Of a stretch of DNA of 64,000 bases, positions 17,777-34,647 are shown piece after piece. The DNA is taken from NCBI RefSeq assembly GCF_000949135.2, contig NZ_JTAN02000017.1:186001-250000 (forward strand), written 5' to 3'. A model generated the notes under the pieces. It saw only the letters and a list, made by a program, of their open reading frames with translations. It was not told where the DNA came from and made no database searches. How positions within the stretch are numbered: the stretch's first letter is position 1; every line of letters starts with the position of its first letter. The stretch is from Burkholderia sp. USMB20. Lineage in GTDB: Bacteria; Pseudomonadota; Gammaproteobacteria; Burkholderiales; Burkholderiaceae. The translations under genes were made by a program, and so were the position numbers.

Positions 17777-17863
17777 GCCCAGGTGGCGGAATTGGTAGAC
17801 GCACTAGGTTCAGGTCCTAGCGGTGGCAACATCGTGGAGGTTCGAGTCCTCTCCTGGGCACCA
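17777..17863 (+). tRNA. tRNA-Leu (CAG), copy 1
   Basis: This 87-nt class II tRNA begins GCCCAGGTGGCGGAATTGG, with anticodon CAG in GGTTCAGGTCC, a long variable arm and an encoded CCA end. It is identical in sequence to the copy at 19300-19386. A terminator follows. Confidence 0.97.
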
Positions 17864-17873
17864 CTTATTTAAA

Positions 17874-17994: not shown

Positions 17995-18015
17995 CGAGTC
18001 CTCTCCTGGGCACCA
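17995..18015 (+). repeat. duplicated 3' end of tRNA-Leu (21 bp)
   Basis: These 21 bases are identical to the last 21 bases of tRNA-Leu (17843-17863 and 19366-19386), including CCA. They are followed, as at copy 1, by a GGTCGGC/GCCGGCC hairpin. No 5' tRNA half is present. It looks like an old attachment-site half or recombination scar. Confidence 0.75.
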
Positions 18016-18026
18016 TCTGTTTTTTG

Positions 18027-19268: not shown

Positions 19269-19299
19269 AGCGGTCTTCGCATCGCAGCAAGCGAAACGT

Positions 19300-19386
19300 G
19301 CCCAGGTGGCGGAATTGGTAGACGCACTAGGTTCAGGTCCTAGCGGTGGCAACATCGTGGAGGTTCGAGTCCTCTCCTGGGCACCA
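19300..19386 (+). tRNA. tRNA-Leu (CAG), copy 2; probable ICE attachment site
   Basis: This is an 87-nt tRNA identical to copy 1. Its 3' end abuts the ICE: the integrase gene begins 165 bp downstream in the same direction. tRNA 3' ends are the usual targets of P4-type integrases, and the tRNA remains intact. The attL core is therefore expected within its T-arm and acceptor-stem end. The matching attR is not in the window. Confidence 0.95.
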
Positions 19387-19422
19387 CAAGGCTGTATAGC
19401 GTAGTACAGAGAAGTCCAGAAG

Positions 19423-19456
19423 ACCCCGTAAATCATTGAATTTTCGGGGTTTTTTG
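19423..19456 (+). terminator. terminator just inside the ICE left end
   Basis: The arms ACCCCG and CGGGGT, with a 16-nt A/T-rich loop, are followed by TTTTTG. It probably ends tRNA transcription before the integrase gene. Confidence 0.65.
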
Positions 19457-19550
19457 TTTATTGCCGTCCAAACCAGAACACGGCAAGCCACGTGCAGACG
19501 AGTACGTTTTTGAGTACATTGAAAGTTCGAGATCCCGCAATGTACTCACC

Positions 19551-20825
19551 ATGCCTCTCACCGTTCGCGAAGTCGAAGCGGCCCGCCCCCGGCCGAAGCC
19601 CTACGGTGTCGCCGATGGCGACGGCCTGGTCCTCTGGGTGACACCAGAGGGCAACAAGTTCTGGCATTTCCGCTATCGCCTGCACGGCAAGCAACCGCGC
19701 ATCTCGCTGGGACGCTTCCCGGACGTGACGCTTCAGAAAGCGAGGCAGCAGGCAGCGGCATACCGTGCACTCGTCGCCGATGGCGCCGATCCGCGCGCGA
19801 AACGACGGATAGACCGCCAGCGGGCGGATACCGGCGACGACGGCACGTTCAGGGCAGCCGCGGAGCTCTGGTACAAGAGCAAACAGGATGCGGGTCGGGC
19901 CGCCTCGACGCTGGACAAGATTCGGACGTACCTCGACAAGGACATCCTGCCCGAGCTCGGTTCGATCAAGCTAGTAAACATCACGCGCGCCGACTGCGCC
20001 CGCGTCCAGGAACGTTTCGAAAAGCGCGACGCCCTCAACGTCTCGAAAAAGGCCCGCGGCTGGCTGCGCGAGATTTTCAGTCAGGCCATTGCACGCGGAA
20101 AGTGCGAATTCAACCCGGCCTCGGAACTCAAGGTCATTGCGAAAGCCGCTCCGAAGGCAAAACCCTATCCTCACCTCCTCGAACCGGAACTGCCTGACTT
20201 CCTGCGCGCGCTTGAGAAATCGTCGAGCCGCCTCATCGCCTACGTCGCTGCTTGGATGACCATCTGGACGGCAAGCCGGCCGGGTATGGTCCGATACGCT
20301 GAATGGATCGAGGTCGATCTCGACGAGGCGCTCTGGACGATCTCCGCCGAAAAGATGAAGATGCGGCGTAGCCACGTCACGCCGCTTCCATCGCAACTCG
20401 TGAAGGCGCTTAGGGAGCTCAAGAAGCTGACTGGCCGTCACCGGTACGTGTTCCCGGGTATCGGCACGAAGCATGAGGTCATCAGCGAGAACACCATCAA
20501 CCTCGTATTTTCCAAGATTGGCTATAAGGGCCGTATGGTAGGGCACGGCACACGCCATACCGCGAGCACCCTCCTTCGCGAGCACGGCTGGGTGAAGGAC
20601 CACGTCGAAACGCAGCTAGCCCATCTTGAAGAAGGGACCGCCGGTGACTACAACCACGCTAGGTATCTGGTCCAACGCCAAGCAATGATTCAGTGGTACG
20701 CCGATTACCTTGACGCGCTCAAGACAGGAATCGAAAGTGATCAGCAAGAAGCTCTTTGTTGCAGGGTCAATGTCGTCCCTCCGCGACCGATTGTCGAAAG
20801 CCTGGAGCCGGGCATAGCAGCTTGA
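19551..20825 (+). CDS. int: P4-type tyrosine recombinase / ICE integrase
   Basis: ATG 19551 gives 424 residues (MPLTVREVEAARPR). The N-terminal DUF4102-type arm-binding domain has KPYGVADGDGLVLWVTP and GKQPRISLGRFPDVTLQKAR. A core-binding helical domain follows, then the catalytic domain. Arg in TASRPGMVRYAEW, the HGTRHTASTLL box (H-x-x-R) and the Tyr in DYNHARYLVQR are all visible, so the enzyme looks intact. It would integrate and, with an excisionase, excise the element at tRNA-Leu. A candidate directionality factor is the AlpA-like protein at 33222. Confidence 0.94.
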   Translation: MPLTVREVEAARPRPKPYGVADGDGLVLWVTPEGNKFWHFRYRLHGKQPRISLGRFPDVTLQKARQQAAAYRALVADGADPRAKRRIDRQRADTGDDGTFRAAAELWYKSKQDAGRAASTLDKIRTYLDKDILPELGSIKLVNITRADCARVQERFEKRDALNVSKKARGWLREIFSQAIARGKCEFNPASELKVIAKAAPKAKPYPHLLEPELPDFLRALEKSSSRLIAYVAAWMTIWTASRPGMVRYAEWIEVDLDEALWTISAEKMKMRRSHVTPLPSQLVKALRELKKLTGRHRYVFPGIGTKHEVISENTINLVFSKIGYKGRMVGHGTRHTASTLLREHGWVKDHVETQLAHLEEGTAGDYNHARYLVQRQAMIQWYADYLDALKTGIESDQQEALCCRVNVVPPRPIVESLEPGIAA

Positions 20826-21212
20826 TCCAACGCTGAATGTGCACGTACCGAGCAGTCGATAAGGCTCGTCCCAGGCTAGTGCATCGGTCTTGACCGTCCC
20901 GGGCGACGCCTTCTACGGATGCGCCGCGGCGGAACACAGACATAGCTAACGTCACTGCAAGCTATAAGGTTCTACGGCGGAATTCGATGTGACGTTCGGC
21001 AATTCGCAGATGCTATGCTACGAAAGTGCGATGGATTGGAAGCCATAGTATGTCTTCGCGCCGAGTGACCGCCGCGCCAGTTAGCAGTCCGCCGGCTGAG
21101 AGCCTTTTGCCTCAAAGTGAAGGGCAGCTCGAACAAAAGCAATAGTCGCACACAGAAACAAGCAGTGTTGGACGTGATACATCGCGCTACCCATCGAAAA
21201 CAGAAAATAAAC
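20826..21212. other. intergenic region between integrase and patatin gene
   Basis: This 387-bp gap shows no credible gene. Its A/T content rises towards the patatin start. An in-frame GTG at 21117 could extend the patatin by 32 residues. No clear promoter or repeat was seen. Confidence 0.4.
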
Positions 21213-24023
21213 ATGTCGAACACTACGACCTGGTCCCAGTACCTATCGAAGTATGAGCACATCTTCGGAAGTTCATCTGAATGGAATGCATTCAAATGGA
21301 GCCCGAATGAAGAAGACAAAGGTGCAGCGTCAGAACTCCATACACAGCTGATATCTCGAATAGCGACTCATTCGTTGACTTACCAAGACGGGATAGAGGC
21401 GTCGGCACTACATAGTCTTCATCAGCTGTTCGACAAGACACGCTCGATTTCGGACAAATATCCAGAGGCTGGGCATTTCCACACCGTCGCGTGGTTCGTC
21501 CTCAACTATCACGTGCGCCCCTTCACTGCGAGATGGCATCCTCGAAATGAGAGCGGCGCTCTCATGGCGTTAGACTCCACTGACGAATTCCGCTCAGAAC
21601 TACGCCGGCTACAGGTGGTTCTGAAGGACTTCGATAGCCTATTGCTCGTGATGTGTGACCGCAACGACTTGCCAGAGCTACCTGCTCTGGACTACGGTCG
21701 CCGGCTAGTACGCGAAGAAATGTCTCGACCAGTCTTCTCAAAGATTTCCCTCGTCCATGGTGGTCTAGATGAAAACGACGCTACCAGATTGAACGACGCG
21801 GAACGCCAAGCAATCGTGGCTCGACGCGATTATTATGGCACCCCTTATGCTCCTGAACCTCACGACCCGTCCGCCAGCGGACTTGCTTTATCTGGCGGCG
21901 GCATTCGGGCGGCTACGTTCTCGCTCGGGGTCCTAGTTTCGTTGGCTCGGCGAGGCTTGCTACCACAGTTCGACTATCTCTCCACCGTATCAGGCGGGGG
22001 CTATCTCGGCTCTTTCATAACGTCCTTCGTATCACATATTCCTGGCACTTCTACAGACGTTCCGATTGACCAGATTGGACTAAAGCCAGATCAATTGCCT
22101 TTTCGCCGGGACGGGGGCGAAGCAGCCGCGCTTCGGCACATTCGGCACCACAGCCGCTATCTCCAAGCATCTTTACTCGAACGTATAGGCCTAGGCGCTG
22201 CGCAGTTCTTTGGCATAGTCGTCAACTGGATGGCATTAATGGCGATGCCAGCGCTCATTGGTATCATCGAAAATCACTTTAGGCCTTGGATTGATAAGTT
22301 TCTGTCCCCGGTTAATCACGGACTGGTAATTCCAAGCCTTTTAATTAGCATAGCCGTGAGCTTGCTAGCCTTGGCGCGCGTCAGCGTTCGAATGAAACCA
22401 ATGGCCCGAAATGGTTTATCGATCGTTGGCCTGACGCTAGTATTTCTCTTGGCTTGGCGCGTGTTGGGATACCTGCATACGTGGGTTGACATTTTTGCAA
22501 CGCAATCACGAATTCGCGATTATTTTGGGGCTGCGATATTATCTGCGATCGGTGCACTTCCTATTATTGCAGCAATACTAATAGTTGCGGCCGGACAAAA
22601 GCTTCCACGTGCCACAAAATTGCTCGGAGTAATTGCTGGGCTTGCTGCACCCGTGATGCTGCTAGATATCGAGCTTCTCGTATTTGCTCACCTGCACGAT
22701 CCGTCCTCGCTCTCCTTCTGGTCGTCCGAACGAGAAAGTCATCCTGAGTGGATCGCCGCGCTAATTGCGATCACGCTGATAAGCCTAAACGTCAATTTTA
22801 CCTCGCTGCACGACTTCTATCGGCGTAAACTTGCGACTGAATTTGTCATTCGTCCTGCCGCTCATCTCACATCTTCTTCCTTTCTCGCGCTTCAGTTCCA
22901 AAAGCTTAGCGAATGGGTGCGAGACTACGCAGGTAGGCGGTCAAAGATGGGGCAAGAAAAAGCAGAAGACACTGGCACCCAGCGTGCGCGGCCAGACAAT
23001 TCCTTTGAGGTCGCTGTGAAGCTTAAACTTTCCGCGATGAGCGTAAGCGCTAAAGGCCCCTACCACTTAATCAATGCAGCGCTGAACGTGCCGGGGTCAA
23101 AGAGCAGCGCGATGCAAGGACGCCGCACCGATTTTTTTCTGTTCAGCCAAAGTTACTGCGGCAGCCCACTAACAGGATATCAACCAACAACAGATTGGGA
23201 AAAGTGTGATCGAAGCCTCGATCTGAGCAGCGCAATGGCCATCTCCGGGGCTGCGGCGTCTCCGCTGATGGGCCTGACGACCAAGCCATATATGTCGTTC
23301 TGGATGGCTTTATTCAACATTCGACTCGGCTATTGGCTCCGAAGACCAAATCGATTACGGAAAGTCGCCGCGGTCGACGCGCCGGGGGTTGGTTATCTAT
23401 TCAGGGAGATGTTTTCTACCGCCAGTGAACGCAGTCGATTTCTCAATATTACTGATGGTGGTCACATCGAAAATCTCGGCGTCTATGAGCTCCTGAGGCG
23501 TCGCTGCAAGTATATTGTCGCAATAGACGGCGAGCACGATCCATCGATGACGTTCAATGCCTTGGCTACGTTACAGCGACTGGCCGCGATAGATCTTAAT
23601 ACCAAGATCGACATTGATCTCGATAATTTGCGATTAACAGATGATGGATTAAGCCGATCTCATTTCGAGTTTTGCCGAGTGCTGTACCCCGCGTCGCGCG
23701 AAGAAAAGGCCGAGGTGGGATACTTGCTCTATGTTAAGTTGTCGCTGACCGGAAACGAGGGAGAGTTCATCCGACGCTATAGACTGGACGAACCCGAATT
23801 CCCGCATCACCCCACGGCTAATCAGTTCTTTACGGAAGCGCAGTTCGAGGCGTACAGATCGCTTGGGGAACACGTAGGTGATAAGCTTTTCCTCGAAGCC
23901 ATCACCGGAAAGCACTTCGATGACCCGATCGTACCTATGGCAGCTTGGTTTGGTGGAATCGGCGAAGAGATGTTGTCTGAGAGCGATCTTCTTCCTGCCC
24001 GCGCTAGTACTTCGGCAGGTTAG
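21213..24023 (+). CDS. patatin-like phospholipase with internal membrane domain
   Basis: From ATG 21213 the protein has 936 residues. The patatin lipase core is split. The oxyanion-hole motif SGGGIRAATF lies at about residues 226-235, the nucleophile serine in VSGGGYLGS at about residue 260, and the catalytic Asp in TDGGHIENLG at about residue 748. Between nucleophile and Asp are five or six hydrophobic helices (about residues 335-530), such as LVIPSLLISIAVSLLALARV and LSIVGLTLVFLLAW. It should hydrolyse membrane phospholipids while anchored in the inner membrane. Patatins serve as membrane-damaging effectors in CBASS (CapV), but no cyclase is adjacent here. It converges on the UDG-like gene with a 3-bp overlap of stop codons. 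Codon use is lower in GC than the core. Confidence 0.85.
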   Translation: MSNTTTWSQYLSKYEHIFGSSSEWNAFKWSPNEEDKGAASELHTQLISRIATHSLTYQDGIEASALHSLHQLFDKTRSISDKYPEAGHFHTVAWFVLNYHVRPFTARWHPRNESGALMALDSTDEFRSELRRLQVVLKDFDSLLLVMCDRNDLPELPALDYGRRLVREEMSRPVFSKISLVHGGLDENDATRLNDAERQAIVARRDYYGTPYAPEPHDPSASGLALSGGGIRAATFSLGVLVSLARRGLLPQFDYLSTVSGGGYLGSFITSFVSHIPGTSTDVPIDQIGLKPDQLPFRRDGGEAAALRHIRHHSRYLQASLLERIGLGAAQFFGIVVNWMALMAMPALIGIIENHFRPWIDKFLSPVNHGLVIPSLLISIAVSLLALARVSVRMKPMARNGLSIVGLTLVFLLAWRVLGYLHTWVDIFATQSRIRDYFGAAILSAIGALPIIAAILIVAAGQKLPRATKLLGVIAGLAAPVMLLDIELLVFAHLHDPSSLSFWSSERESHPEWIAALIAITLISLNVNFTSLHDFYRRKLATEFVIRPAAHLTSSSFLALQFQKLSEWVRDYAGRRSKMGQEKAEDTGTQRARPDNSFEVAVKLKLSAMSVSAKGPYHLINAALNVPGSKSSAMQGRRTDFFLFSQSYCGSPLTGYQPTTDWEKCDRSLDLSSAMAISGAAASPLMGLTTKPYMSFWMALFNIRLGYWLRRPNRLRKVAAVDAPGVGYLFREMFSTASERSRFLNITDGGHIENLGVYELLRRRCKYIVAIDGEHDPSMTFNALATLQRLAAIDLNTKIDIDLDNLRLTDDGLSRSHFEFCRVLYPASREEKAEVGYLLYVKLSLTGNEGEFIRRYRLDEPEFPHHPTANQFFTEAQFEAYRSLGEHVGDKLFLEAITGKHFDDPIVPMAAWFGGIGEEMLSESDLLPARASTSAG

Positions 24024-24682
24024 AACATCCCCAGTTGCCCCGTTACAGGTGCGAGCCCATAAAGACAGCGCATTGTTTCCAGGAATTGGGACTGCCCACC
24101 GTAACTCGGATGACGAACCTGCTCGACGTTCGAGTTACGTGAAAGCTTTCTGGCGGTCGCTGCGGCGTCATTGCCTATTGCGACGAGCCGTCTGGGTTTC
24201 AATAGATCTATCAACTCCGCCAGGACATCCTCTCCGCCTCTTCGCTCTGCCGCACTATGGCTACGATTGCTGAAAGGCTTCGATGGCTCATGCGGATGTA
24301 GCGGAAATACGTTCCACAGGAAAATTGGATCTCCGATCTGTGAGAGCAATCCCCAAATTACCGCAGCAGTTCTTTCCGCAACCGGTTGTCCGTATGTTGG
24401 TCGCAGTGCATTAACACCCCAGCGCTGGGTATGCGCCTGCATATAGACATCATCGGTCAACGCGAGACCGGTTCGCCGTCCACCGCGATATCCGAGGTCC
24501 CGGCCTATCCATATCGAGTCAATCTCGGAGCGAGTCGCTGCCTTGAGAATTGCCAGCAGCATCCGACGCCGCATGATCGGGGCGTCTACTCGGTCATGCA
24601 CGGGACAACGATGTGCGTACGGATTGAAAGTATCCGGAAACGTCAGGGTCTCAAGACCCTTGATAAACTGGTTTGCATTCAA
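24020..24682 (-). CDS. uracil-DNA glycosylase superfamily protein
   Basis: This 220-residue protein starts at TTG 24682, whose TTGA overlaps the stop of the MazG-like gene and suggests translational coupling. Motif I is IWIGRDLGYRGGRRTGLALTD (about residues 57-77), reminiscent of the GEAPGYRGCRxTG motif of UDG-like proteins. PIFLWNVFPLHPHEP follows, then VAIGNDAA, and motif II VRHPSYGG near residue 190. The canonical catalytic residues are altered, so it may recognise a modified base rather than uracil. It is the last gene of the minus-strand cluster and converges with the patatin gene. Confidence 0.72.
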   Translation of the reverse strand: MNANQFIKGLETLTFPDTFNPYAHRCPVHDRVDAPIMRRRMLLAILKAATRSEIDSIWIGRDLGYRGGRRTGLALTDDVYMQAHTQRWGVNALRPTYGQPVAERTAAVIWGLLSQIGDPIFLWNVFPLHPHEPSKPFSNRSHSAAERRGGEDVLAELIDLLKPRRLVAIGNDAAATARKLSRNSNVEQVRHPSYGGQSQFLETMRCLYGLAPVTGQLGMF

Positions 24683-25830
24683 TCGATTTCATCCAGCCGA
24701 CGAAAAGTAAGCTTCCGCGATGCGCGATCACCGATAACAACCCCACCGCTGGAAGTCACGACCTTCCGGAAGACTGCGTAGCCTTGCAGGATGGCATCTT
24801 CCCACAATTTCAGCGGACATGCCTCGACCTCGTAACCTCGTACAAACTCCCCGATAGTCTTCAGCAAATCGAACGACACTCCAGTTTGACCTTCGAAAAA
24901 GTCGAGCGATTTGGCCCTCGAATAGAGCCACGCAGTCAAGCCCTCCTCCACGACTATTGCCCTCCCACCATCCTGTGCTTCATCAATCGAGCTAACGCTT
25001 TTGCGCTTGTGCTTGATTAAGGCGCGAAACGTGGGCGACCAGTGCAGTATTGCTGCGTGGGCGAAGTGGAAGACGTCGTGGAAGCGATACCCATCCCGGT
25101 CCTCAATGTTGTCGGTAAGGGGATCACCGATGAATACGCCGTTCCATTGCAAGCAACTCTGCCCATTTCTGCGCTGTTTGATGACTATTTCGAAATGAGC
25201 GGGCAGTCGCTCCTCTTCGTCGAACGTATCGTCAAACGTCGGAAGAGTTGAGATGTCGGGCATCAGAAAGCGCCCAGAGGCCTTGGTTAGGTTGCGGTGA
25301 AGCACCCTCGAAAACGTGATGTTTGCAGCCTGAAGAGCGTGAAGATACGATCCAGCAAAATTTTGAAGAAGGTGCTCTCCATTGGATACGTTTTCGCGCA
25401 ATGCAAGCAGGGCTGCTGCCGAATGGCCCAGATCAAGGAGTGCGTCATCGAGATTTCGAAGTGCCAAGGCCGACGAAATATGAACTATAGGGCTAGTTGC
25501 AACGTCGCTAGCGGCGACCGTCATCGTATATCCACTGTTGCGCGTTGCGTTTGACAGAATCATAGGCAAACTGACGTCGAGGCGGCGAGCTAGCGCAGCA
25601 AAATACCAAAGCGCGTCGCCGAATTCCTCTTCGACCGCCGCTTCATAGCCCTTATAGGCTTCTCGTTCCCTGTGCAACTTCTTAGCGGGTGCCATGATAC
25701 TCCCCACCTCACCAAAAAGTCCCATGAGAACCGGGCGTAAGTCGTCCTCTGATAAGCGATCAGTTGGCCGTATTGCATCAAGATAGTCCTGAAGAAGTAT
25801 CGATCTACAACCGTCAACGATTCCGTTCAT
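24679..25830 (-). CDS. MazG-like nucleotide pyrophosphohydrolase fused to an unknown C-terminal domain
   Basis: ATG 25830, with GGTGAGG placed 6 nt upstream, gives 383 residues; non-ATG starts exist further up. The N-terminal 100 residues carry the all-alpha NTP pyrophosphatase pattern: LMGLFGEVGSIMAPAKK, then EEEFGDALWYFAALARRLDVSLP, with the metal-binding Glu/Asp set. The remaining 270 residues form a conserved-looking domain. It has a His-rich stretch (GYRFHDVFHFAHAAILHW), an EEGLTAWLYSRAK helix and the ending GVVIGDRASRKLTFRRLDE. I do not recognise that domain. Together with the neighbouring Nmad2-like and UDG-like genes it points to handling of unusual nucleotides. Confidence 0.75.
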   Translation of the reverse strand: MNGIVDGCRSILLQDYLDAIRPTDRLSEDDLRPVLMGLFGEVGSIMAPAKKLHREREAYKGYEAAVEEEFGDALWYFAALARRLDVSLPMILSNATRNSGYTMTVAASDVATSPIVHISSALALRNLDDALLDLGHSAAALLALRENVSNGEHLLQNFAGSYLHALQAANITFSRVLHRNLTKASGRFLMPDISTLPTFDDTFDEEERLPAHFEIVIKQRRNGQSCLQWNGVFIGDPLTDNIEDRDGYRFHDVFHFAHAAILHWSPTFRALIKHKRKSVSSIDEAQDGGRAIVVEEGLTAWLYSRAKSLDFFEGQTGVSFDLLKTIGEFVRGYEVEACPLKLWEDAILQGYAVFRKVVTSSGGVVIGDRASRKLTFRRLDEID

Positions 25831-25838
25831 ATCGAACC

Positions 25839-26432
25839 TCACCAATCAATCGGCCGCCCGAGATACCCGGTAGCGCCGAGCGACGAAAACCACTCCACAA
25901 AGCACGCTTCCATTCCGGCAGGAAAATACCGCTTGTATCCACGACCAATGCATAGATCATGGCCTTCGTAGCTTCTCAGGTTCGCCGGAATCAGCGGGCC
26001 ATTTCCACCCCAGTATGCGAAGATCCGACCGATCAGTACCCGATCGACGCGTGTGTCATTACGTATGTTTCTAATGTTCGGGACGCCCTCCTCGTAACTG
26101 TGATGTGAGTCTGCTTGTGCCCAACCACCATCAACGCGATGATATATGTTGTCTCCGAATGCAACCTTCGCACTTCCCTCCAGGCTTGGCCTTTTATACT
26201 GAAACCGGGGATCATTCCAATACCCGTCAAAGGTCATCGTTTCCGACACCTGCATTGCATACACAAGGTAGCCCGCACGATTGTTTGATGCACTTCCGGT
26301 TCCGACAACCCAATCCCCAACTTGCGCAAAGCGTCTGACATCGGGTTTACAAGTCGCAAGCGTACAACATTGGCCAAAAGGATTCGGCGCAAATCCATAG
26401 TCGCGCGCGACCACATAGGAGAATAGAGTCAT
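25839..26432 (-). CDS. Nmad2-like putative nucleotide-modification-associated protein
   Basis: This 197-residue protein begins MTLFSYVVARDYGFAPNPFG. With CTLATCKPDVRRFAQVGDWVVGTGS, LVYAMQVSETMTFDGYW and GDNIYHR, it resembles the Nmad2 family (nucleotide modification associated domain 2), as I recall it. Those proteins were predicted to work with DNA or nucleotide hypermodification systems; no activity is known to me. The start is ATG 26432, 5 bp after the ThsB-like gene, and the MazG-like gene follows within 8 bp, so the three are cotranscribed. Confidence is high that it is a real gene, moderate for the family name. Confidence 0.7.
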   Translation of the reverse strand: MTLFSYVVARDYGFAPNPFGQCCTLATCKPDVRRFAQVGDWVVGTGSASNNRAGYLVYAMQVSETMTFDGYWNDPRFQYKRPSLEGSAKVAFGDNIYHRVDGGWAQADSHHSYEEGVPNIRNIRNDTRVDRVLIGRIFAYWGGNGPLIPANLRSYEGHDLCIGRGYKRYFPAGMEACFVEWFSSLGATGYLGRPIDW

Positions 26433-26437
26433 TTTAT

Positions 26438-26920
26438 TTAACAGCTATATCTCTTGATATCTCGATGAGTTGACGGCTTACCTTCAAAATCTTCCCAACT
26501 CTCGCCCTGACCATTTATGGCCTTTATAATACTTTCGCCGTGCCAGCCGACGACCATGGAATCCGCGTAGTCCGCCAGCGCCTGTGGAATCTCGCATCCC
26601 TTTTCGCCACGTGCCCAGACGCCAATTATCGTTTTCCCTTCCTTCTGAGCATACTCGATTTCCCAATTTACGTAATGACTGTCCTTGGTCTGCGGGGTGA
26701 TATACACAATCAGCGTACTGCAGTCCCTGATACGTGGCGCCAAGATCTCCGACTTTATATAATCTTCTGATTTGGCATTATTTGGGTTACTAGAATTTAT
26801 TGAATAATCTCTAATATTCATCCCATTTTCAGCCAGCAACGCCTTTAGCTTGCCAAGCCCATCATCGTCTTCGTGTACATGGCTTATAAAAACATTCTTC
26901 GTCTGCGCCGGCTTATCCAT
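26438..26920 (-). CDS. ThsB-like TIR protein (MTH538/DUF1863 type), copy 2
   Basis: ATG 26920, after a GGAGGGGG ribosome site, gives 160 residues. KNVFISHVHEDDDGLGKLKALLAENG is the TIR-like first strand and helix. ILAPRIRDCSTLIVYITPQTKDSHYVNWEIEYAQKEGKTIIGV is the DUF1863 core, as in Thoeris ThsB. ThsB proteins sense phage infection and make cyclic ADP-ribose isomers from NAD+. The protein is a distant paralogue of the product of 32249-32791. It leads the downstream sub-operon with the Nmad2-like, MazG-like and UDG-like genes. Confidence 0.8.
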   Translation of the reverse strand: MDKPAQTKNVFISHVHEDDDGLGKLKALLAENGMNIRDYSINSSNPNNAKSEDYIKSEILAPRIRDCSTLIVYITPQTKDSHYVNWEIEYAQKEGKTIIGVWARGEKGCEIPQALADYADSMVVGWHGESIIKAINGQGESWEDFEGKPSTHRDIKRYSC

Positions 26921-27114
26921 ACCCCCTCCACTGTCAATATCGGTATCAGCGACAATCAACCTGCCCAAGCACACTCAACTTCCTCGCGCTCGCCAGAAAA
27001 TAATGCTCATGATTTCATCAGTTTGGCGCACCTTTTGGATTGTAAATTTTCTTTATCGGAGACGTCGACCAAATCCGATCCGAAAGTTGATTAGATAACA
27101 ACCCTTCCATCGAA

Positions 27115-28149
27115 TCATCTTATGCGCCCATCAATCAGCGCAATAACTCGACTTTCCAGATCCTGCCTTGTTAATGCGGTGTGGTAAATAAGATCACGCG
27201 CCCTAGTAGGCACAATGCGAGTCTCGTCTGTTCGAATTATCCAAAGATCCATTTTTTCTTGGCTATGCCTATCGAGCGCCAACTCAAACTCATCGAAGCA
27301 CCAAGGACTACACGCATATTCGGCCGACCACAATGCGATGAAAACCGTCGCTTCGAAGACGGCCTCGCGAATTCGTTCAACGACCGAGTGTCCCGCCCCG
27401 AAATCGCTTTCATCGCGGAACACTGTGATATTCCGGCGCCGGAGAAGAGTTTCAACATGATCGGCTTCCGCCTGCCGCGCCCTCGGATAACTAATGAAAA
27501 TCTTCTCGTTGCTCGGAGCGTCGAGCACGGAGTCTCTGCCTACGGCAAACGCATTGATCATCGATTCAAGAGAATCCTCGACGTCGTGGTCTTGCAACTT
27601 TATGAAATTGAGGCCCAGCTTGTCTTCCAATTCGTACCGACGACGCTCGTATGATAATTTTGCAGCACCTCCGAGCACGGGAAAGGGTAGAACATGCTTT
27701 CGCTTTCCATCGGCGACCTGGAGCAGCATATTAGCGGAGCCGTCAACGTGCCCCCCGATAGCAATCGTCACGTTGCTGGAATCAAGCGCTCGCAACTGAG
27801 ACAAAAGCCATGCGTACCGGCGGCCATCTTCTGTATCGCTTTGCCAAGGTGCGTGCGGAATTCTATGCACGTTTTCTAACTTCAATTGACCAACGACATT
27901 TTCTATACTCTGTCTTACCTTGGCGTCGTCGGGGAAGTGAAACTCGACCTCGATTGAACGTCCACGTGCGGCCGATGCAGCACCATGCAACACCTCAACG
28001 TCCGCGGTATTTGGGAAAGGACTGCACAGTATCAGGGCATGACCAGCGTTTGCTAAGCTTCGTCCTATAGACCGACAGAGTTTGCTCCTCCCCTGCTCCG
28101 ATGAATCGACTCCGCGATCGGCTGGCCCACCAATAACAAATATCTTCAT
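27115..28149 (-). CDS. SLOG-TIR fusion protein
   Basis: ATG 28149 gives 344 residues. Residues 1-205 form a Rossmann-like SLOG domain: MKIFVIGGPADRG at the start, SIGRSLANAGHALILCSPFPNTADVEVLHG, and TIAIGGHVDGSANMLLQVA as the ligand-loop region. Residues about 215-340 are a TIR domain: EKIFISYPRARQAEADHVETLLRRRNITVFRDE, then ALWSAEYACSPWCFDEFELAL. SLOG domains bind nucleotide-derived messengers (as in ThsA) and TIR domains consume NAD+. The protein may thus be a signal-gated NADase that uses its own sensor. It stands between gaps of 269 and 194 bp, so it may have its own promoter. Confidence 0.82.
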   Translation of the reverse strand: MKIFVIGGPADRGVDSSEQGRSKLCRSIGRSLANAGHALILCSPFPNTADVEVLHGAASAARGRSIEVEFHFPDDAKVRQSIENVVGQLKLENVHRIPHAPWQSDTEDGRRYAWLLSQLRALDSSNVTIAIGGHVDGSANMLLQVADGKRKHVLPFPVLGGAAKLSYERRRYELEDKLGLNFIKLQDHDVEDSLESMINAFAVGRDSVLDAPSNEKIFISYPRARQAEADHVETLLRRRNITVFRDESDFGAGHSVVERIREAVFEATVFIALWSAEYACSPWCFDEFELALDRHSQEKMDLWIIRTDETRIVPTRARDLIYHTALTRQDLESRVIALIDGRIR

Positions 28150-28418
28150 TGTGTTGCCCCGATGTATTTTCTCTTTAAAAGATTTTCCTGGTTCACGCCT
28201 GCATCGCAATTTTAAATCTCGACATTACCGTCGAGCAGAATGACAGAATTGATTTAACACACCCACTATGCACAGATACGGTTTGGGCTGTTCAAAACAC
28301 TTTGCTTTTAGGTGCTACACGAATTTTCCAATGAGGCGTTGAAACTGAGACCGCAAAACCAATCAATGACATCGATTGATGTTTTAGCTCGACCATGCCT
28401 GCCCTCTCGCTAGCCCTG
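28150..28418. promoter_or_regulatory. intergenic gap splitting the TIR cluster
   Basis: This 269-bp A/T-rich gap probably carries the promoter for the SLOG-TIR gene. A short inverted repeat TCGAC-attacc-GTCGA lies at about 28217-28232. No hexamers close to consensus were found with confidence. Confidence 0.35.
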
Positions 28419-29621
28419 TCACGATCGACTCTTCACAAATCGCCGTGTCGCATCGGTCTTACTGACCTGAAGGGTAATGAACGGCCCCGAGGCTAATGCT
28501 TGGAAGACGCGAATCGCATCCCGCTCCTGCAGATAAGCAATCGCGGGATTGAGACGTCGCGCAGTCCAGCCGTACCTCTGTGCGATCTCCAAAGGCGTTG
28601 TCGGCATCTCCGAATCATTGACAAGGTCGACGGCTAGCCGCACAGCATCAAGAGCCGGATCCCAAGGCTGCCAGTAGCGATCGAACTCAGAATACAGCGT
28701 GCTTTTGGGTACTACAAAGTCGAATCTGGTCTGCACGCGATGTCGGATCTCGTAAAGCGCGTCAGCCAAATCCTCAGGCGACAGGCCTGTACGTTCTGCG
28801 ATCTCGTCGATCTTCAATTGAGGATCGGCGAATTGTCCATTTTTGCTAGCCGTAACGAATAAGCCCGCCACGGCTGTCGCCGCACTTGTGTACCCACTAC
28901 GAGGCGCACTAACAGCCGCCGGCGCGGGTCCACGCTCCGGTTTCCTGCTCACTCCGTGGATATCGTGGACGAGTTGGAGCATTCCCGTCCCGTCCGCGCC
29001 GATTTCGGGCGAAAGCATTCCGGCCATCAAAGGAGGAAGGGCCGTCGCTCCCAGTCCATGTCGCAGCGGTATGAACCGGCTCTTGTCACCGAGCTTGCGT
29101 ATGAAGCCTCCGTCGATTTCCTCGTTCACCCACGGGCGGGTTATTGACGCCGGTGTCAGGAGAACAAGGAAATGCGTGCAATTCTCCAGGCCTTCATCGA
29201 TCTTGCGTCTGATGCTATCGCCGGCCCGAATCTCCCACTCCGCCCACCATGTTTCAATCCCGTTCGCCTGTAAACACTCAGCGATTTTGCTGGCCAGATG
29301 CCGATCTTCCCATCCATAGCTGAGAAAAGCGCGCGGACCAGTGCCAGCATCTGAATCAACAAACGTCATGCTGTTCAACTCCTCCGGGCTCATCCTGTCC
29401 CGAACTATCTGTAGCAGCGCCGGCGACCCTTCTATCCGAAACGCCATATCCCGGAGATCATCTCCCTCAACTACCACGGAAGGAAACTCTCCCGTCTCCG
29501 GATGCCGAATCGATCCTAACTTTTCCCGCATGCTAGTCGCGATCTTGGCAGCGGCAGTCCGCATTATCTCTTTCTCAAGATCCCTCGGCATGATCGATTT
29601 GCCATTGATCGTCAACTTCAA
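28419..29621 (-). CDS. TIR-domain protein with C-terminal winged-helix region
   Basis: This 400-residue protein has an N-terminal helical part (1-90) and a TIR domain at about 96-205: RAFLSYGWEDRHLASKIAECLQANG, then WWAEWEIRAGDSIRRKIDEGLENCTHFLVLLTPASITRPWVNEEI. The Glu near residue 130 is the likely NADase catalytic residue by position. Residues 255-385 look like one or two winged helices (KIDEIAERTGLSPEDLADALYEIR and TPLEIAQRYGWTARRLNPAIAYLQERDAIRVF). They could bind DNA or mediate assembly. It is the last gene of the upper operon, 11 bp from the preceding TIR gene. Confidence 0.82.
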   Translation of the reverse strand: MKLTINGKSIMPRDLEKEIMRTAAAKIATSMREKLGSIRHPETGEFPSVVVEGDDLRDMAFRIEGSPALLQIVRDRMSPEELNSMTFVDSDAGTGPRAFLSYGWEDRHLASKIAECLQANGIETWWAEWEIRAGDSIRRKIDEGLENCTHFLVLLTPASITRPWVNEEIDGGFIRKLGDKSRFIPLRHGLGATALPPLMAGMLSPEIGADGTGMLQLVHDIHGVSRKPERGPAPAAVSAPRSGYTSAATAVAGLFVTASKNGQFADPQLKIDEIAERTGLSPEDLADALYEIRHRVQTRFDFVVPKSTLYSEFDRYWQPWDPALDAVRLAVDLVNDSEMPTTPLEIAQRYGWTARRLNPAIAYLQERDAIRVFQALASGPFITLQVSKTDATRRFVKSRS

Positions 29622-29632
29622 CAGGCTCTCTT

Positions 29633-30220
29633 CTAGTTTACTCTTTTACGGATTTTCGCCGTGCCTTTCGCCCATCTTGCAAGACTCGCGTATGTATCGG
29701 CGGCCTCGGTAATCCACAGCTCGCGCTTTTTTGTCTCCCGGCTTGTCTCTATATCCACGTGCGGGTACAGGTTGAGATACTCTTCGCCTTTGAATGCCTC
29801 TTCCTGGTTCCGAGTTATCGGGATGATCCCAACAGATCCCTTAAGGCCGTCAAAGAAACCAAGCTCCCATGGCATCCAACGGGATTTCTTCGAGTACTGA
29901 CTGTGGACGTAAAGAAGCGTATTCGAGCATCGCATCCGATATCGCAGGATCTCCGCAGTCTCTCGCGTTACCCTTTCGGGAGAAAGATGAGGATCGCTGT
30001 ACTTGTCGACGTAGACTGAGAGTCCTCTATCCTCAAGCAAAGCCACGACGCCGAGCAAAATATCCTCCGGCTCTGCCGAAGAATGGCTGAGAAACACATC
30101 GAACCGTTCATCGGCCAATGCGGCTGTCGCTTCCGAGAGTATGCGCCCCGCAGATTTCTGAAGACGTCGAGTGACGCGTTCCGCACGCGCTCGAACTTCC
30201 TGTTCCGTAAGATATGCCAT
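29633..30220 (-). CDS. TIR-domain protein
   Basis: ATG 30220 gives 195 residues (MAYLTEQEVRARAERV); the longer open frame upstream overlaps the SLOG gene in another frame and is rejected. After a helical N terminus, residues 40-160 form a TIR domain: RFDVFLSHSSAEPEDILLGVVALLEDRGLSVYVDKYSDP, then CSNTLLYVHSQYSKKSRWMPWELGFFDGLKG. The WELGFF helix is typical of bacterial TIRs. Spacing to the neighbours is 11 and 11 bp. Whether it is an enzyme or an adaptor cannot be told. Confidence 0.8.
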   Translation of the reverse strand: MAYLTEQEVRARAERVTRRLQKSAGRILSEATAALADERFDVFLSHSSAEPEDILLGVVALLEDRGLSVYVDKYSDPHLSPERVTRETAEILRYRMRCSNTLLYVHSQYSKKSRWMPWELGFFDGLKGSVGIIPITRNQEEAFKGEEYLNLYPHVDIETSRETKKRELWITEAADTYASLARWAKGTAKIRKRVN

Positions 30221-30231
30221 GGCAATACAAG

Positions 30232-31059
30232 CTATGAGCCATCCTTGGTGGTCGCAACATTGAGCAACCCGCGAATGATAAGAAGGATGGCTTGATCGAC
30301 GTGTGGCGTACAGGCAAGAATAGTGTTCTCTTCCTGCGTAAGACCGTTGTGAAGATCGACGTCTCGGAAGACCTTGAAGGCGGCCCGACCAGGCCATGCC
30401 GGCCGCGATCCTGTCCAAGGCGCAATCAGTCCGACGCTTTCCGCGATGTCGCGCGCACACCCGCCGAAGCCGCCCAGGAGAAACAGGGGCTGCCCTTTTT
30501 GCATCGACAGCAATGCTTCTTCGGCGATACCGGGCATGGCGCCTCTGTACTGATCCACCCGTCCGCCCAAGACAATTCTGGCGTGCGTCTCTGAGAGCAT
30601 TGTCCGACGCATGGACGTAAGTCCCTGCGACCACTCCACGTCGGTTGGCGCACACTGCAGAAGGTGCTGACGTTCATCCACCGACAGCCGGGCACCGTCC
30701 AGTGTGAGGCAAACGAGTTCAGCCGCCCCTTCAAGGTCAGCAGCAAATGCTTGCAGATCGCCGAACGGCTTAGCAATATGCACTGGCCAAGCCAGATAAT
30801 TGGTAACACCGATTTGATCGTCCCCACCACTCGTATCCCGGCGGTGCCGAGCCACAAGCTCGAATAACAACTCGCTGAATCCGTACTGACGTAGATCGCC
30901 CCCATAAACGAGCTTTGCGCCCAACGCAAGCATGTGCCGAGCAATCTCGGCCATGGCATCGCGCAAATGCTCTTCGCTCAACCCTAACGCCGGCATATCC
31001 GGGCTTTCTGAGGTCGATATAGCGATTGAGTGACAATGAAGGACTTCTTGATAGTTCAT
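30232..31059 (-). CDS. stand-alone SLOG (LSDAT/TRPM-like) domain protein
   Basis: ATG 31059 gives 275 residues and overlaps the stop of the double-TIR gene as ATGA, indicating coupled translation. N-terminal half: DMPALGLSEEHLRDAMAEIARHMLALGAKLVYGGDLRQYGF, a Rossmann-like start with a glycine loop. C-terminal half: ARIVLGGRVDQYRGAMPGIAEEALLSMQKGQPLFLLGGFGGCARDIAE, the SLOG ligand-binding signature. No membrane helix or catalytic motif is seen. In this context it is a candidate receptor for a TIR-made nucleotide. Confidence is good for the SLOG fold and lower for its partner. Confidence 0.78.
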   Translation of the reverse strand: MNYQEVLHCHSIAISTSESPDMPALGLSEEHLRDAMAEIARHMLALGAKLVYGGDLRQYGFSELLFELVARHRRDTSGGDDQIGVTNYLAWPVHIAKPFGDLQAFAADLEGAAELVCLTLDGARLSVDERQHLLQCAPTDVEWSQGLTSMRRTMLSETHARIVLGGRVDQYRGAMPGIAEEALLSMQKGQPLFLLGGFGGCARDIAESVGLIAPWTGSRPAWPGRAAFKVFRDVDLHNGLTQEENTILACTPHVDQAILLIIRGLLNVATTKDGS

Positions 31060-32240
31060 CTGACCGCTCCCGCGAGCCACTCGGTCAGGCTGCGCAACTG
31101 TACACGAGGGGCAACATCCGCGAACAGTCTTTCTTCTTCGGCGCTAAGCGGTGGATCCGGGTACACGATCACCGGAGCAGGCGCGTCAATGGCGGATGGT
31201 AGGCTGGCGAGTGTGATGAGTTCCGGCGGGCGAGGCACAAATACGACCGACGAATCGGCTCTAACACTAGCGAGTTCCACCTTGCAGCGCCATAAAAAAT
31301 CCTTTAGAACCTCGTCAAGCAATCGGCCAATGACGGAGTCGATACGATCCACACCGTGAGGCTCCAACCGAACCACAGGAACATTTCCCATGTAAGGAAA
31401 GCCGCGTTCATCGAGATCGGTAATACTGTTGGCGACGACTAGAGGTACGTTCCAACGCTTTGCTTCTATGATCTCGCGACGACACCACTCTCGAGACGAG
31501 TACGAGTCGGTGTGGATGGCTACCATAGCGCTCACCCGCACCTGCTGGAGCAAGACTTTATGAAATCGAAGGCCAGCCGGAATATCGTGGACGTCGAAAA
31601 AGCTTGAAAGACCATGACCACTGTGAAGCCGGTCACGAATTAAGTGCGCAATCCTCTCTCCATCGCCGTCATGCTTGGAGTGGCTGAGGAAAACTTGCAC
31701 TTTCTTAAGGTAAGCCTCAAGTTCATCGTCTTCCTTGGCAGGATGTTTTAGATGCTCCAGATAGTGGCGCAGCATCCGGCAAAATTCGTAGGTAAGCTCA
31801 CTGATCAGTCGCTGCCGACGATCGTCATTGGAGCCGCTCCAACGATCCCAGCGCAGCGCCTGTTCTTCCAGCCCTAGATTGTTGAGTGCCGCTCGCTCAA
31901 AGGAAATAGGGAAAACACGGGAGCCAAGGCCTGCAGCCTCAGTTCGATCGACTAGCTCCCGAATGTAATTGGACCAAGCCGCATCTGCTGTCAACGTCGA
32001 GTTGGCCATCACCACGACAGCGGTCGCCTCAGCTTCGGCTAGGTCAATCGGCAAAGGTTCGTCGGCCCCGGGAGCGTTGGTTGAACGGTAAATCACGCTC
32101 AAACCCGTGCCGCCCGCTACATTCTCATATAGCTTGCGGCGGAAATGCTTCCGCAACATCTCCGCAATCTCGGGACCGTCAGTAAACCCGGGATGCCAGA
32201 CGACATAGACCACGAGGAACGGCCGAGTCGAATCGATCAT
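31056..32240 (-). CDS. double TIR-domain protein
   Basis: This 394-residue protein has a second TIR domain that is clear at about residues 181-330: KVQVFLSHSKHDGDGERIAHLIRDRL, FFDVHDIPAGLRFHKVLLQQVRVSAMVAIHTDSYSSREWCRREI. The N-terminal 115 residues also look TIR-like (PFLVVYVVWHPGFTDGPEIAEMLRKHF, then AVVVMANSTLTADAAWSNYIRELVDRTEAAG), but are more divergent. The usual catalytic glutamate position in the second TIR is not obvious. It overlaps the SLOG gene by 4 bp and follows the ThsB-like gene by 8 bp. A tandem TIR may act as sensor plus effector, or as a scaffold. Confidence 0.8.
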   Translation of the reverse strand: MIDSTRPFLVVYVVWHPGFTDGPEIAEMLRKHFRRKLYENVAGGTGLSVIYRSTNAPGADEPLPIDLAEAEATAVVVMANSTLTADAAWSNYIRELVDRTEAAGLGSRVFPISFERAALNNLGLEEQALRWDRWSGSNDDRRQRLISELTYEFCRMLRHYLEHLKHPAKEDDELEAYLKKVQVFLSHSKHDGDGERIAHLIRDRLHSGHGLSSFFDVHDIPAGLRFHKVLLQQVRVSAMVAIHTDSYSSREWCRREIIEAKRWNVPLVVANSITDLDERGFPYMGNVPVVRLEPHGVDRIDSVIGRLLDEVLKDFLWRCKVELASVRADSSVVFVPRPPELITLASLPSAIDAPAPVIVYPDPPLSAEEERLFADVAPRVQLRSLTEWLAGAVR

Positions 32241-32248
32241 GGTGCTTC

Positions 32249-32791
32249 TCAGGCGTTGCGCAATCTGCGGTCGCGCGTATTGACGATCAGCTTACAGCTA
32301 CGAGACTTCGCATCCGCAACAAGGCGTTCGAGTTGTCCCGGGCTGGCGGTAATGTCTTCCCAGCTGCGCCATACCGCAAAGCCAGACTGGATGTTGTCGT
32401 GCAGCCTGCCGGGAACAATGACTTTGTTATCCTTGGGATCGCGAGCCGCAGTCGGCAGGCGAACCCCAATCAAGCCGTGCTCCTTGTCGAGCGTCGCCTT
32501 GATCTCCCAGTCCACATACTTGCGGCCCCATGTCTCGGCACCGACAAGAACAATCGTGCAAGAGCTTCCAGTTATATAGTTTTCCCGGATCCGTCGCATA
32601 ACGTAATCGACGTCGTCGCTATCTACCTCACGCTCAAGTGAGTTGTCGTAGATTACGTCATAGGTGTCGTGGAACGCCTGCGAGAATGCGTCATAGTACC
32701 GTTGGTCTCGCCTATGGTGGTAGCTGAGAAACACCTTATGTTTGACCGGCTTCTGTACGCGAAGACTTTCTCCAAATATCCCGTAGCTCAT
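32249..32791 (-). CDS. ThsB-like TIR protein (DUF1863 type), copy 1
   Basis: ATG 32791 gives 180 residues. Core: KHKVFLSYHHRRDQRYYDAFSQAFH, then VMRRIRENYITGSSCTIVLVGAETWGRKYVDWEIKATLDKEHGLIGVRLP, the pattern of Thoeris ThsB and MTH538. It is the first gene of the minus-strand TIR cluster. ThsB-type proteins often provide phage-specific sensing and make the second messenger. Two divergent ThsB-like copies in one island (also 26438-26920) resemble Thoeris loci with several ThsB genes. No Sir2-SLOG ThsA is present. Confidence 0.84.
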   Translation of the reverse strand: MSYGIFGESLRVQKPVKHKVFLSYHHRRDQRYYDAFSQAFHDTYDVIYDNSLEREVDSDDVDYVMRRIRENYITGSSCTIVLVGAETWGRKYVDWEIKATLDKEHGLIGVRLPTAARDPKDNKVIVPGRLHDNIQSGFAVWRSWEDITASPGQLERLVADAKSRSCKLIVNTRDRRLRNA

Positions 32792-33448: not shown

Positions 33449-33919
33449 TCACGACGCGCCGACACCCAGCATCGTGCCGCGGCATCCTCGCGTCCCACAC
33501 CGGCAGACGTAGCTTAGTCTCGTCTCTTCGTCCGTCGGATCGTCGACGGCCAACTGGTAATCGAGAAAGAGTTCCTCGCCGGGTCCAATCGCGGTCGACG
33601 CGTGAATAAATACGCGGTCTTCGATCTCAACCGCCTCGCAATTGGCCGTACACGCATGATTGAGCCAGCGCGCGCTGTTTCCACCACGCCCGCCGTCGAT
33701 TACGCGTCCGTCGGAGAGACCAAAGAAATACGTGTGGCCCGCTATGCCATTACTTCCATGCTCCCTGATGGCCGCCGTCCACGCGATCCGCTCGCCCTTG
33801 TATTCAAAAATCCGCTCGCCGGCTTCGAGTATCCGTAATGCGAAGACACCACGCCCATGCACGGGCGAGCGCCGAACCACTACGCGTCGGCGAATGACCT
33901 GTCCATTCTCTTTTTTCAT
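33449..33919 (-). CDS. SET-domain protein-lysine methyltransferase homologue
   Basis: ATG 33919 gives 156 residues. The SET hallmarks are complete: VVVRRSPVHGRGVFAL at the start, RWLNHACTANCEA (the NHxCxxN box), and GEELFLDY with the active-site Tyr. A post-SET cluster CRCGTRGCRG with a CxCGx3CxG arrangement follows. SET proteins methylate lysine using S-adenosylmethionine; bacterial versions are rare and their targets are poorly known. It converges with alpA and lies 29 bp upstream of the end of the DUF4400-type gene. Confidence 0.86.
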   Translation of the reverse strand: MKKENGQVIRRRVVVRRSPVHGRGVFALRILEAGERIFEYKGERIAWTAAIREHGSNGIAGHTYFFGLSDGRVIDGGRGGNSARWLNHACTANCEAVEIEDRVFIHASTAIGPGEELFLDYQLAVDDPTDEETRLSYVCRCGTRGCRGTMLGVGAS

Positions 33920-33948
33920 GGCGGAAGTATAGGACGACAAATTGCGGT

Positions 33949-34647
33949 CTACGTGTACTTCTTGAAGTACTTCGCCATGTTCCATACGGCGATCACGATC
34001 ATTATCGACACCGGCCAGAAAAGCAGCCAGACCGGCAGCCGTACCGGCGCGACCAGCCAGACGATCGCAGTCAGCGGGATGACGCCGAACATCAGCAGAT
34101 GTTTTACGTGGTGATAGCGGGTCGCGGATTCATGCCCGCCCAACGCGCGTCTCACATCTCGCGCGACCAGTCCGTCAACCAGCGCGACGGCAATCGCGAG
34201 GACGAACTGCGGCACCGTCATGGCGAGCATCGCCATGCGAACCCCGAAGAGCTTGAGGCCGTACATCGCGACAACAAGCCCCTCGCGCGTCCCCCCTGAA
34301 AACGCAGGCTGGAGATACGATCCGAGTCCCTGTGCCGGCAGCACGCCAGCCTGCCATGCCCGCGCCGACGCGTCGACGCCGGTCCAGCCGAACCAGGTCC
34401 AGTAGGCGAAGTCCGCGGCCCTCGCAGCGAGGCCGGGATCGGTTGTTCCGTTCAGGTAATAACGCAGGAGCGCCTGCACCCCGCCCACCGGATCGTCGCG
34501 CCACAGGAAATGTGCGGCCAGCAGATCCGCCAGGACCGAAAGTATGCTTGCCAGCAGCAGCCAGAGCGCAACGTGAATCGCCAGATCGACGACCCAGAAA
34601 AACGACTTCACGCCATCGGCGTTTCCATCACGCGTCTTCGCTGCCAT
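33949..34647 (-). CDS. ICE membrane protein, DUF4400/TIGR03747-like
   Basis: ATG 34647 (MAAKTRDGN, GGAG upstream) gives 232 residues. A membrane helix lies at about 15-45, two or three more in the C-terminal half (MAMLAMTVPQFVLAIAVALVDG and HLLMFGVIPLTAIVWLV), and the protein ends in KYFKKYT. The sequence resembles the ICE membrane proteins found next to traD. It sits 15 bp downstream of traD and is probably cotranscribed with it. Its role in transfer is unknown. Confidence 0.78.
   Translation of the reverse strand: MAAKTRDGNADGVKSFFWVVDLAIHVALWLLLASILSVLADLLAAHFLWRDDPVGGVQALLRYYLNGTTDPGLAARAADFAYWTWFGWTGVDASARAWQAGVLPAQGLGSYLQPAFSGGTREGLVVAMYGLKLFGVRMAMLAMTVPQFVLAIAVALVDGLVARDVRRALGGHESATRYHHVKHLLMFGVIPLTAIVWLVAPVRLPVWLLFWPVSIMIVIAVWNMAKYFKKYT

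Follow-up and report, generated by a model that had tools for sequence, protein, structure and literature searches.

What do ten neighboring genes that combine TIR, SLOG, and nucleotide-handling domains encode: one defense system, several independent ones, or a set of interchangeable parts? The question is raised by an island in Burkholderia sp. USMB20 that occupies positions 24020..32791 (minus strand) of the window, i.e., the 64,000-nucleotide stretch analyzed here (contig NZ_JTAN02000017.1, positions 186,001 to 250,000), to which all coordinates refer. Our main reading, to which we give a probability of roughly 0.58, is that the island is cargo of a mobile element in which modules have been combined, namely, a unit resembling Thoeris type III and a separate input module linked to DNA bases. 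A sequence-only reading had treated the ten genes as a single layered system; that claim did not hold up, and the island probably does not form a single inseparable system.

Two co-varying gene sets

The ten open reading frames are all present, open, and collinear, as first described, and by Pfam and PADLOC they comprise six TIR-domain genes and one SLOG gene, followed by Nmad2, MazG_C, and uracil-DNA glycosylase (UDG) genes. The catalytic-type Glu is kept in all six TIR domains. Gaps are short across genes 1 to 5 (8, −4, 11, and 11 bp, in agreement with the sequence-only reading) and across genes 7 to 10 (5, −4 or 8 depending on the start codon, and −4 bp), with 269 bp upstream of gene 6 and 194 bp ahead of gene 7. 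This spacing suggests three units: genes 1 to 5, gene 6, and genes 7 to 10. A promoter and terminator scan gave no excess over shuffled sequences (4 versus 6.5 and 7 versus 9.5).

The island lies between a tRNA-Leu/tyrosine integrase pair (19300-20825; tRNA-Leu at 19300-19386 and integrase at 19461..20825, plus strand) and AlpA, TraG/D, TraI_2, and TrbI genes. Because the integrase and tRNA-Leu stand on one side and conjugation genes further on, the arrangement suggests that the island is cargo of an integrative conjugative element. G+C content is ∼0.61 to 0.70 upstream of the element and 0.49 to 0.57 over the island. No near-identical copies were found among plasmids. Two 97-nt copies of the tRNA-Leu, 99% identical, are located at 17768-17864 and 19291-19387, and the 3' end of the tRNA is present once more at 17995-18022; these are possible attachment-site remnants.

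The first gene set, core A, consists of genes 2 and 3. Gene 2 (31056..32240, minus strand), labeled "dTIR," has a conserved N-terminal region, a TIR_2 domain, and a C-terminal region. It had been described as a double TIR, of which one Pfam TIR_2 domain stands (residues 183 to 262); its Glu256 is shared by 94% of the 71 sequences in an alignment that includes the window. A proven TIR identity for the N terminus was rejected, the first 170 residues giving no match to the profile of TIRc, the gene 7 family (hhalign probability, 0.2). Gene 3 (30232..31059, minus strand) is a SLOG cluster-2 protein (PF18163; LD_cluster2 SLOG, 245 bits), and its start at ATG 31059 produces a 4-bp overlap with gene 2. 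Gene 2 is a putative effector and distant ThcB4 relative, and gene 3 is a putative messenger receptor and distant ThcA relative.

Scanning genomes with the gene-2 alignment A3 yielded 94 confirmed relatives, and the 80 best became our set of loci; a first scan using the cluster-2 SLOG family (SLOG2) alone found no relatives. Genes were counted in these 80 genome loci and in 20 plasmid loci (L014, L123, L125, L126, and the short L095 to L116 left out), with thresholds on hidden Markov model and BLAST scores that we set ourselves, and the counts are lower bounds, since many contigs do not extend over the full 10-kb flanks. In 15 of the 80 loci, gene 2 and SLOG2 are fused, and in 58 SLOG2 is the same-strand neighbor of gene 2; it still adjoins gene 2 in L030 (truncated SLOG2), L052 (broken gene 2 frames), and L086 (contig end), giving 76/80 loci overall. 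In L022, L084, and L088 the sequence stops within 370 bp; the fragment L079 lacks SLOG2. The fusion of TIR and SLOG implies that effector and sensor belong to one machine, as in SIR2-SLOG ThsA.

Gene-2 relatives are spread over what we take to be some ten phyla of bacteria plus a single archaeal bin, many of the records being metagenome bins. By record title these are presumably Pseudomonadota, Bacteroidota, Bacillota, Chloroflexota, Gemmatimonadota, Binatota, Latescibacteria, Eremiobacterota, Planctomycetes, and Acidobacteria. Plasmid records add one cyanobacterium and one actinomycete, and a viral collection contained two contigs (L127 and L128) with relatives at 71% and 63% identity. The closest locus, from Methylobacterium tarhaniae (L015), carries in ∼11 kb relatives of gene 2 (79% identical), gene 3 (71%), and gene 4 (69%), together with TIRc (38%), two Nmad2 genes (47 and 48%), MazG (52%), and a patatin-like gene in two frames.

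Across the 80 loci, we found TIRa (the gene 1 family) in 51, TIRb (gene 4) in 30, TIRc in 30, the gene 5 type (TIR-wHTH, with a possible winged helix) in 4, and SLOG-TIR (gene 6) in 2; the base-handling genes were Nmad2 (29 loci), MazG (22), a 5-hmdU DNA kinase (17), and UDG (9), and patatin and HsdR genes occurred in 8 and 7 loci, respectively. An additional TIR gene lies ≤2.5 kb from gene 2 in 60/80 loci. The co-occurrence of several TIR genes beside SLOG, remarked on from the window alone, is borne out as a recurrent synteny, and relatives of most island genes recur together beyond chance in loci of many lineages.

The second set, module B, comprises genes 7 to 10. Gene 7 (26438..26920, minus strand; ATG 26920 is a likelier start than GTG 26974) encodes TIRc, a ThsB that matches the full PADLOC profile PDLC00418 at 209.9 bits and Pfam ThsB_TIR; its Glu105 is present in 30/30 sequences. 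The last residue of TIRc is Cys in 23 of 30 sequences used, window included, and all 30 have a Cys ≤4 residues from the C terminus. The Nmad2-, MazG-, and UDG-like assignments of the sequence-only reading were borne out by Pfam: gene 8 (25839..26432, minus strand) is Nmad2 (PF18753; 225.6 bits), gene 9 (24679..25845, minus strand) carries MazG_C (PF18722; 257 bits), and gene 10 (24020..24682, minus strand) belongs to the UDG superfamily (24.9 bits; cutoff, 24.3). The N terminus of gene 9 has no Pfam MazG match, and we take it to be MazG-like from its conserved residues. For Nmad2 and gene 10, sequence searches gave no useful relative of solved structure.

In general, module B is a TIR-Nmad2 pair to which MazG_C is often added, along with either UDG or the 5-hmdU DNA kinase (PF18723), which takes the position of gene 10 in other loci. 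The last two genes exclude each other: among 42 Nmad2 loci, UDG is present in 17, the kinase in 21, both in none, and neither in 4 (Fisher test, P = 2e-8, ancestry ignored). A homology between MazG_C and the 5-hmdU kinase was considered and dropped, since hhalign of the whole alignments gave no match. A TIR gene is immediately upstream of all 44 Nmad2 genes in the 42 chosen loci and of 45/50 after addition of L104, where TIRc is present, L105 to L108, and L123; these adjacency counts leave out the 12 noncenter Bacteroidota genome matches of Nmad2.

Correlations of sequence distances (Mantel tests run without L095 to L116 and ignoring ancestry) separate the two sets. The correlation is 0.91 for genes 2 and 3 (86 loci), and within module B it is 0.78 for TIRc-Nmad2 (40 loci), 0.70 for Nmad2-MazG (31 loci), 0.84 for MazG-UDG (16 loci), 0.69 for Nmad2-UDG (16 loci), and 0.63 for Nmad2-kinase (21 loci). 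Gene 2 correlates less with module B (TIRc, 0.27 in 34 loci; Nmad2, 0.37 in 34 loci; MazG, 0.52 in 25 loci) and with the other TIRs (TIRa, 0.27 in 72 loci; TIRb, 0.52 in 18 loci). Co-variation is therefore strong inside each set and weaker between them, and it is this contrast, 0.27 to 0.52 between sets versus 0.91 for genes 2 and 3 and 0.69 to 0.84 for TIRc-Nmad2-MazG-UDG, that speaks against a single ten-gene system. Core A and module B are nevertheless not independent, because all eleven correlations exceed 999 permutations.

The background frequency of these genes is low. Including the chosen center in each sample, Nmad2 was found in 6/398 Pseudomonadota and 13/385 Bacteroidota genomes and SLOG2 in 7/398 and 6/385; minus the centers, Nmad2 is present in 5/397 and 12/384, i.e., about 1 to 3% of genomes, compared with 29/80 gene-2 loci, although the former is a rate per genome and the latter a rate per locus. 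Noncenter genomes with SLOG2 number 11 (two at only 37 bits) and those with Nmad2 number 17; both genes occur in two of them (G291 and G438), 0.3 and 1.6 kb apart. The common defense family HSDR_N, by comparison, is present in 213/398 genomes versus HsdR in 7/80 loci, a large contrast, although again in different units.

Plasmids provide further pairings. Nmad2 matched 16 plasmid records, and we opened all but the fragment H80, i.e., 15 records. Within ∼13 kb of Nmad2, the gene 2-gene 3 pair is found in 5/15 records (L004, L006, L007, L008, and L124; in L008 the stretch lies across the record start from Nmad2), ThcB4-ThcA in 4/15 (L012, L013, and L121 by NCBIfam and L119 by our own model), and SLOG-TIR in 1/15 (L005). 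L012 additionally carries a SIR2-STALD ThsA. The pairing of core A with module B is thus repeated, and core A is exchanged for type III Thoeris in some of these records.

Proposed mechanism and competing explanations

By analogy with Thoeris, we predict a messenger, a SLOG receptor, and an NADase effector. The ThsB-type TIRs (genes 1 and 4) would produce an NAD-derived messenger upon infection; the SLOG cluster-2 protein (gene 3) would bind it and activate the TIR of gene 2, which, once on, would consume NAD+ and stop the cell. Module B, with TIRc directly before Nmad2 and followed by the MazG-like nucleotide pyrophosphohydrolase (MazG_C) and the UDG-type glycosylase, is perhaps an interchangeable input unit. 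It may recognize or process noncanonical pyrimidines, such as uracil or 5-hydroxymethyluracil, whether in the DNA of phages or in pools of nucleotides; a tie to the chemistry of these bases is suggested by the company its domains keep. TIRc would convert this detection into a messenger for a nearby SLOG effector (gene 3 or 6), and these genes would have a role in defense. A tentative extension, which we consider somewhat doubtful, is that TIRc-Nmad2-MazG_C, together with either UDG or the 5-hmdU kinase, acts as a plug-in detector for noncanonical pyrimidines (uracil or 5-hydroxymethyluracil) of phage DNA or the nucleotide pool. Its ADP-ribose-type signal would be common to different SLOG effectors, i.e., cluster-2 TIR, type III Thoeris, SLOG-TIR, and SIR2-SLOG, so that surveillance of bases would feed into TIR second-messenger immunity.

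Several observations weigh against the combination of a type III-like unit with a base-linked input module. Only 2 of the 17 noncenter Nmad2 genomes also contain SLOG2 (15/17 do not), 51/80 gene-2 loci lack Nmad2, and 20/80 lack another recognized TIR within 2.5 kb. No recognized TIR or SLOG effector accompanies Nmad2 in 5/15 opened plasmid records (L117, L118, L120, L122, and L123), and there is no adjoining TIRc in L105 to L108, which represent 4/5 noncenter Pseudomonadota Nmad2 matches, or in plasmid L123, all five of them scoring 78 to 140 bits. Shared mobile elements may account for part of the linkage between core A and module B, the permutation and Fisher tests take no account of ancestry, and the enrichment sets per-locus against per-genome rates. 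The HsdR model, built on six sequences, may overlook some types. Finally, genes 2 and 3 fall short of the curated type III models, as discussed below.

The most direct competitor is a defense island of merely clustered independent systems without a shared signal: a type III-like Thoeris, a single TIR-wHTH, a SLOG-TIR, and a separate nucleotide-modification system. The lower between-module correlation (0.27 to 0.52), the spacing into three units, the TIR-wHTH found alone in two opened loci, and module B without a recognized effector in one-third of the opened plasmid records would all be expected if this were the case. Simple clustering does not readily explain why gene-2 loci carry Nmad2 ∼12 to 29 times more often than sampled genomes do, with no enrichment of HsdR (in different units), or why module B adjoins both SLOG cluster-2 and cluster-3 partners, and we regard it as unlikely. 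Module B could instead be a pathway for self-modification or nucleotide hygiene, one by which DNA of the element or host is marked or cleaned, in the manner of 5-hydroxymethyluracil hypermodification genes, with TIRc as a pathway enzyme or guard rather than a phage sensor. Such a role would fit the 5-hmdU DNA kinase in 19/94 loci, the occasional thymidylate synthase and O-methyltransferase genes, and type I restriction-modification genes beside core A in some loci. It is quite improbable given that UDG, whose relatives remove bases, substitutes for the kinase, that the ten genes of the window include no thymidylate synthase, and that TIRc scores as a ThsB with Glu105 invariant in the sequences compared.

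A narrower alternative concerns core A, in that genes 2 and 3 could be a true type III ThcB4-ThcA pair missed by the models through divergence only. The identical gene order, TIR first and SLOG second, and the short overlaps or gaps between the genes point that way, as do hhalign matches of gene 2 to ThcB4 (P = 1.6e-6; probability, 90) and gene 3 to ThcA (P = 3.7e-5; probability, 71). Against the curated models, however, gene 2 reaches 35.4 bits over the TIR only (ThcB4 cutoff, 220) and gene 3 reaches 16.4 bits (ThcA cutoff, 110), whereas the plasmid proteins of L012, L013, and L121 pass at 477, 417, and 388 bits (ThcB4) and 252, 225, and 216 bits (ThcA). The Pfam SLOG families also differ (cluster 2 versus cluster 3), making divergence alone a distinctly unlikely explanation. 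On the evidence of its sequences, then, the gene set appears to be a real, widespread, and modular variant of Thoeris-type signaling, with an intriguing possible link to modified bases. If the combination of a type III-like unit with a base-linked input module is correct, there is a further branch of Thoeris-type signaling in which a SLOG cluster-2 protein is the receptor and a TIR the effector, sensors would be modular, with a modified-pyrimidine module re-paired with different effectors, and detection of odd phage DNA may be joined to known bacterial self-destruct signaling. What ThsB-type TIRs detect would then become a testable question.

Other island genes and recurrent neighbors

Gene 1 (TIRa; 32249..32791, minus strand) encodes a ThsB-like TIR (PF08937; ThsB_TIR, 95.9 bits). 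Its likelier start is ATG 32791, and its catalytic-type Glu is residue 115 when counted from the open reading frame start at 32848. It matches PADLOC ThsB only partially (47 bits), the best PADLOC match being the candidate PDC-M50B (53 bits). Gene 4 (TIRb; 29633..30220, minus strand) is a ThsB by a nearly full-length match to PADLOC PDLC00422 (207.7 bits), with Pfam TIR_2 marginally below the cutoff (27.8 versus 28 bits); TIRb is immediately 3' of SLOG2 in L003, L015, L025, L028, and L052.

Gene 5 (28419..29621, minus strand) had been read as TIR-wHTH; the TIR is sound (TIR_2, 80 bits), and the winged-helix match is below the Pfam cutoff. Ten plasmid records contain it at ≥80% coverage, and of the three plasmid loci opened, it is near SLOG2 in L010 and has no SLOG2 nearby in L125 and L126. 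This distribution also argues against a single system, and gene 5 is probably a stand-alone passenger. Gene 6 (27115..28149, minus strand), described earlier as SLOG-TIR, has a clear C-terminal TIR_2 (68.6 bits), while its SLOG-like N terminus is weaker than claimed: it has no Pfam match and is recognized when its profile is set against that of gene 3 (P = 1.1e-4; probability, 56) rather than that of ThcA (P = 0.014; probability, 3). The viral collection contained no gene 6 relatives.

Just outside the island, gene 0 (21117..24023, plus strand) encodes a patatin-like protein of 968 amino acids (Pfam Patatin, 26.9 bits, slightly under the cutoff of 27.7) and is convergent with gene 10, their ends overlapping by 4 bp. 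Of 41 plasmid records matched by patatin, the three that cover ≥72% of gene 0 adjoin island-type genes (L004, L005, and L124), and gene 0 appears to be a recurrent accessory. In Cupriavidus (L012:1419-3035), a SLOG cluster-2-patatin phospholipase fusion adjoins a TIR gene; because SLOG cluster 2 is fused to patatin here, the effector part may be exchangeable. Type I restriction-modification genes (HsdM, HsdS, and HsdR) flank a TIR-gene 2-SLOG2 cassette in L067, L070, L075, L085, L094, and L039, and a YgjP-like gene is present in 5/6 of these loci. Elsewhere in the window, a SET-domain gene (33449-33985, minus strand) adjoins the AlpA regulator of the element, and a UvrD-like helicase gene (50891-53731) has a topoisomerase-type zinc ribbon match below the cutoff.

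Comparison with known systems

According to the accessible part of PMC12847820, the hallmarks of Thoeris types I, II, and IV are a SIR2 plus STALD ThsA, a transmembrane (TM)-macro ThsA, and a caspase-like effector, respectively; details of ThsB and ThsA follow the accessible part of PMC11204291. Among the ten genes and gene 0, no SIR2 plus STALD ThsA was found above the cutoff (gene 3 scores 11 bits for STALD), and there was no match to a macro domain or to a caspase-like effector, so the earlier statement that the ten genes contain no ThsA stands. Like type I, the island has ThsB-class TIRs and a SLOG protein: genes 4 and 7 match PADLOC ThsB over nearly all and all of its length, respectively, gene 1 does so in part, and all three have the catalytic-type Glu. 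Unlike type I, the ten genes include no SIR2 domain, and the putative effector is a TIR.

The genes of module B resemble the nucleotide-modification genes in the accessible part of the DefensePredictor study (PMC13092281), where MazG, MazG-C, and a nucleotide-modification domain are predicted but unvalidated, UDG is among the abbreviations of the corresponding figure, and 5-hmU kinase and thymidylate synthase belong to systems that were validated. The accessible main text, by contrast, contains none of the words TIR, SLOG, and Thoeris. Brig1 (PMC11078745, in the part accessible) is an antiphage DNA glycosylase encoded near a ThsA-like gene and is, like gene 10, a UDG-superfamily member in a defense context. 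Brig1 differs in that it confers immunity alone and excises glucosylated hydroxymethylcytosine. Neither a TIR-Nmad2-MazG-UDG set nor an account of the proteins of type III Thoeris was found in the literature, a weak absence in both cases since subscription literature was largely out of reach.

The closest known system is Thoeris type III (NCBIfam ThcA, NF058525, and ThcB4, NF058526), which the accessible part of PMC12390725 names in a single passage. The sequence-only reading had matched the island to no named defense type. This needs qualification, as type III has a similar architecture, but it remains fair in that genes 2 and 3 score far below the type III cutoffs. Genes 1 to 5, a tight operon that combines one SLOG gene with several TIR genes, fit type III if its definition is taken from the model names. 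The island SLOG is cluster 2 and that of type III is cluster 3 by Pfam, and the island-type SLOG2 can be fused to gene 2, as in 15/80 related loci. Because the profiles are related and the gene order is the same, yet the scores are far below the cutoffs, we consider core A to be probably Thoeris type III-like rather than type III proper. In both, a SLOG gene lies directly 3' of a long TIR gene, and type III pairs too adjoin the TIRc-Nmad2-MazG-UDG module (L012, L013, L121, and L119).

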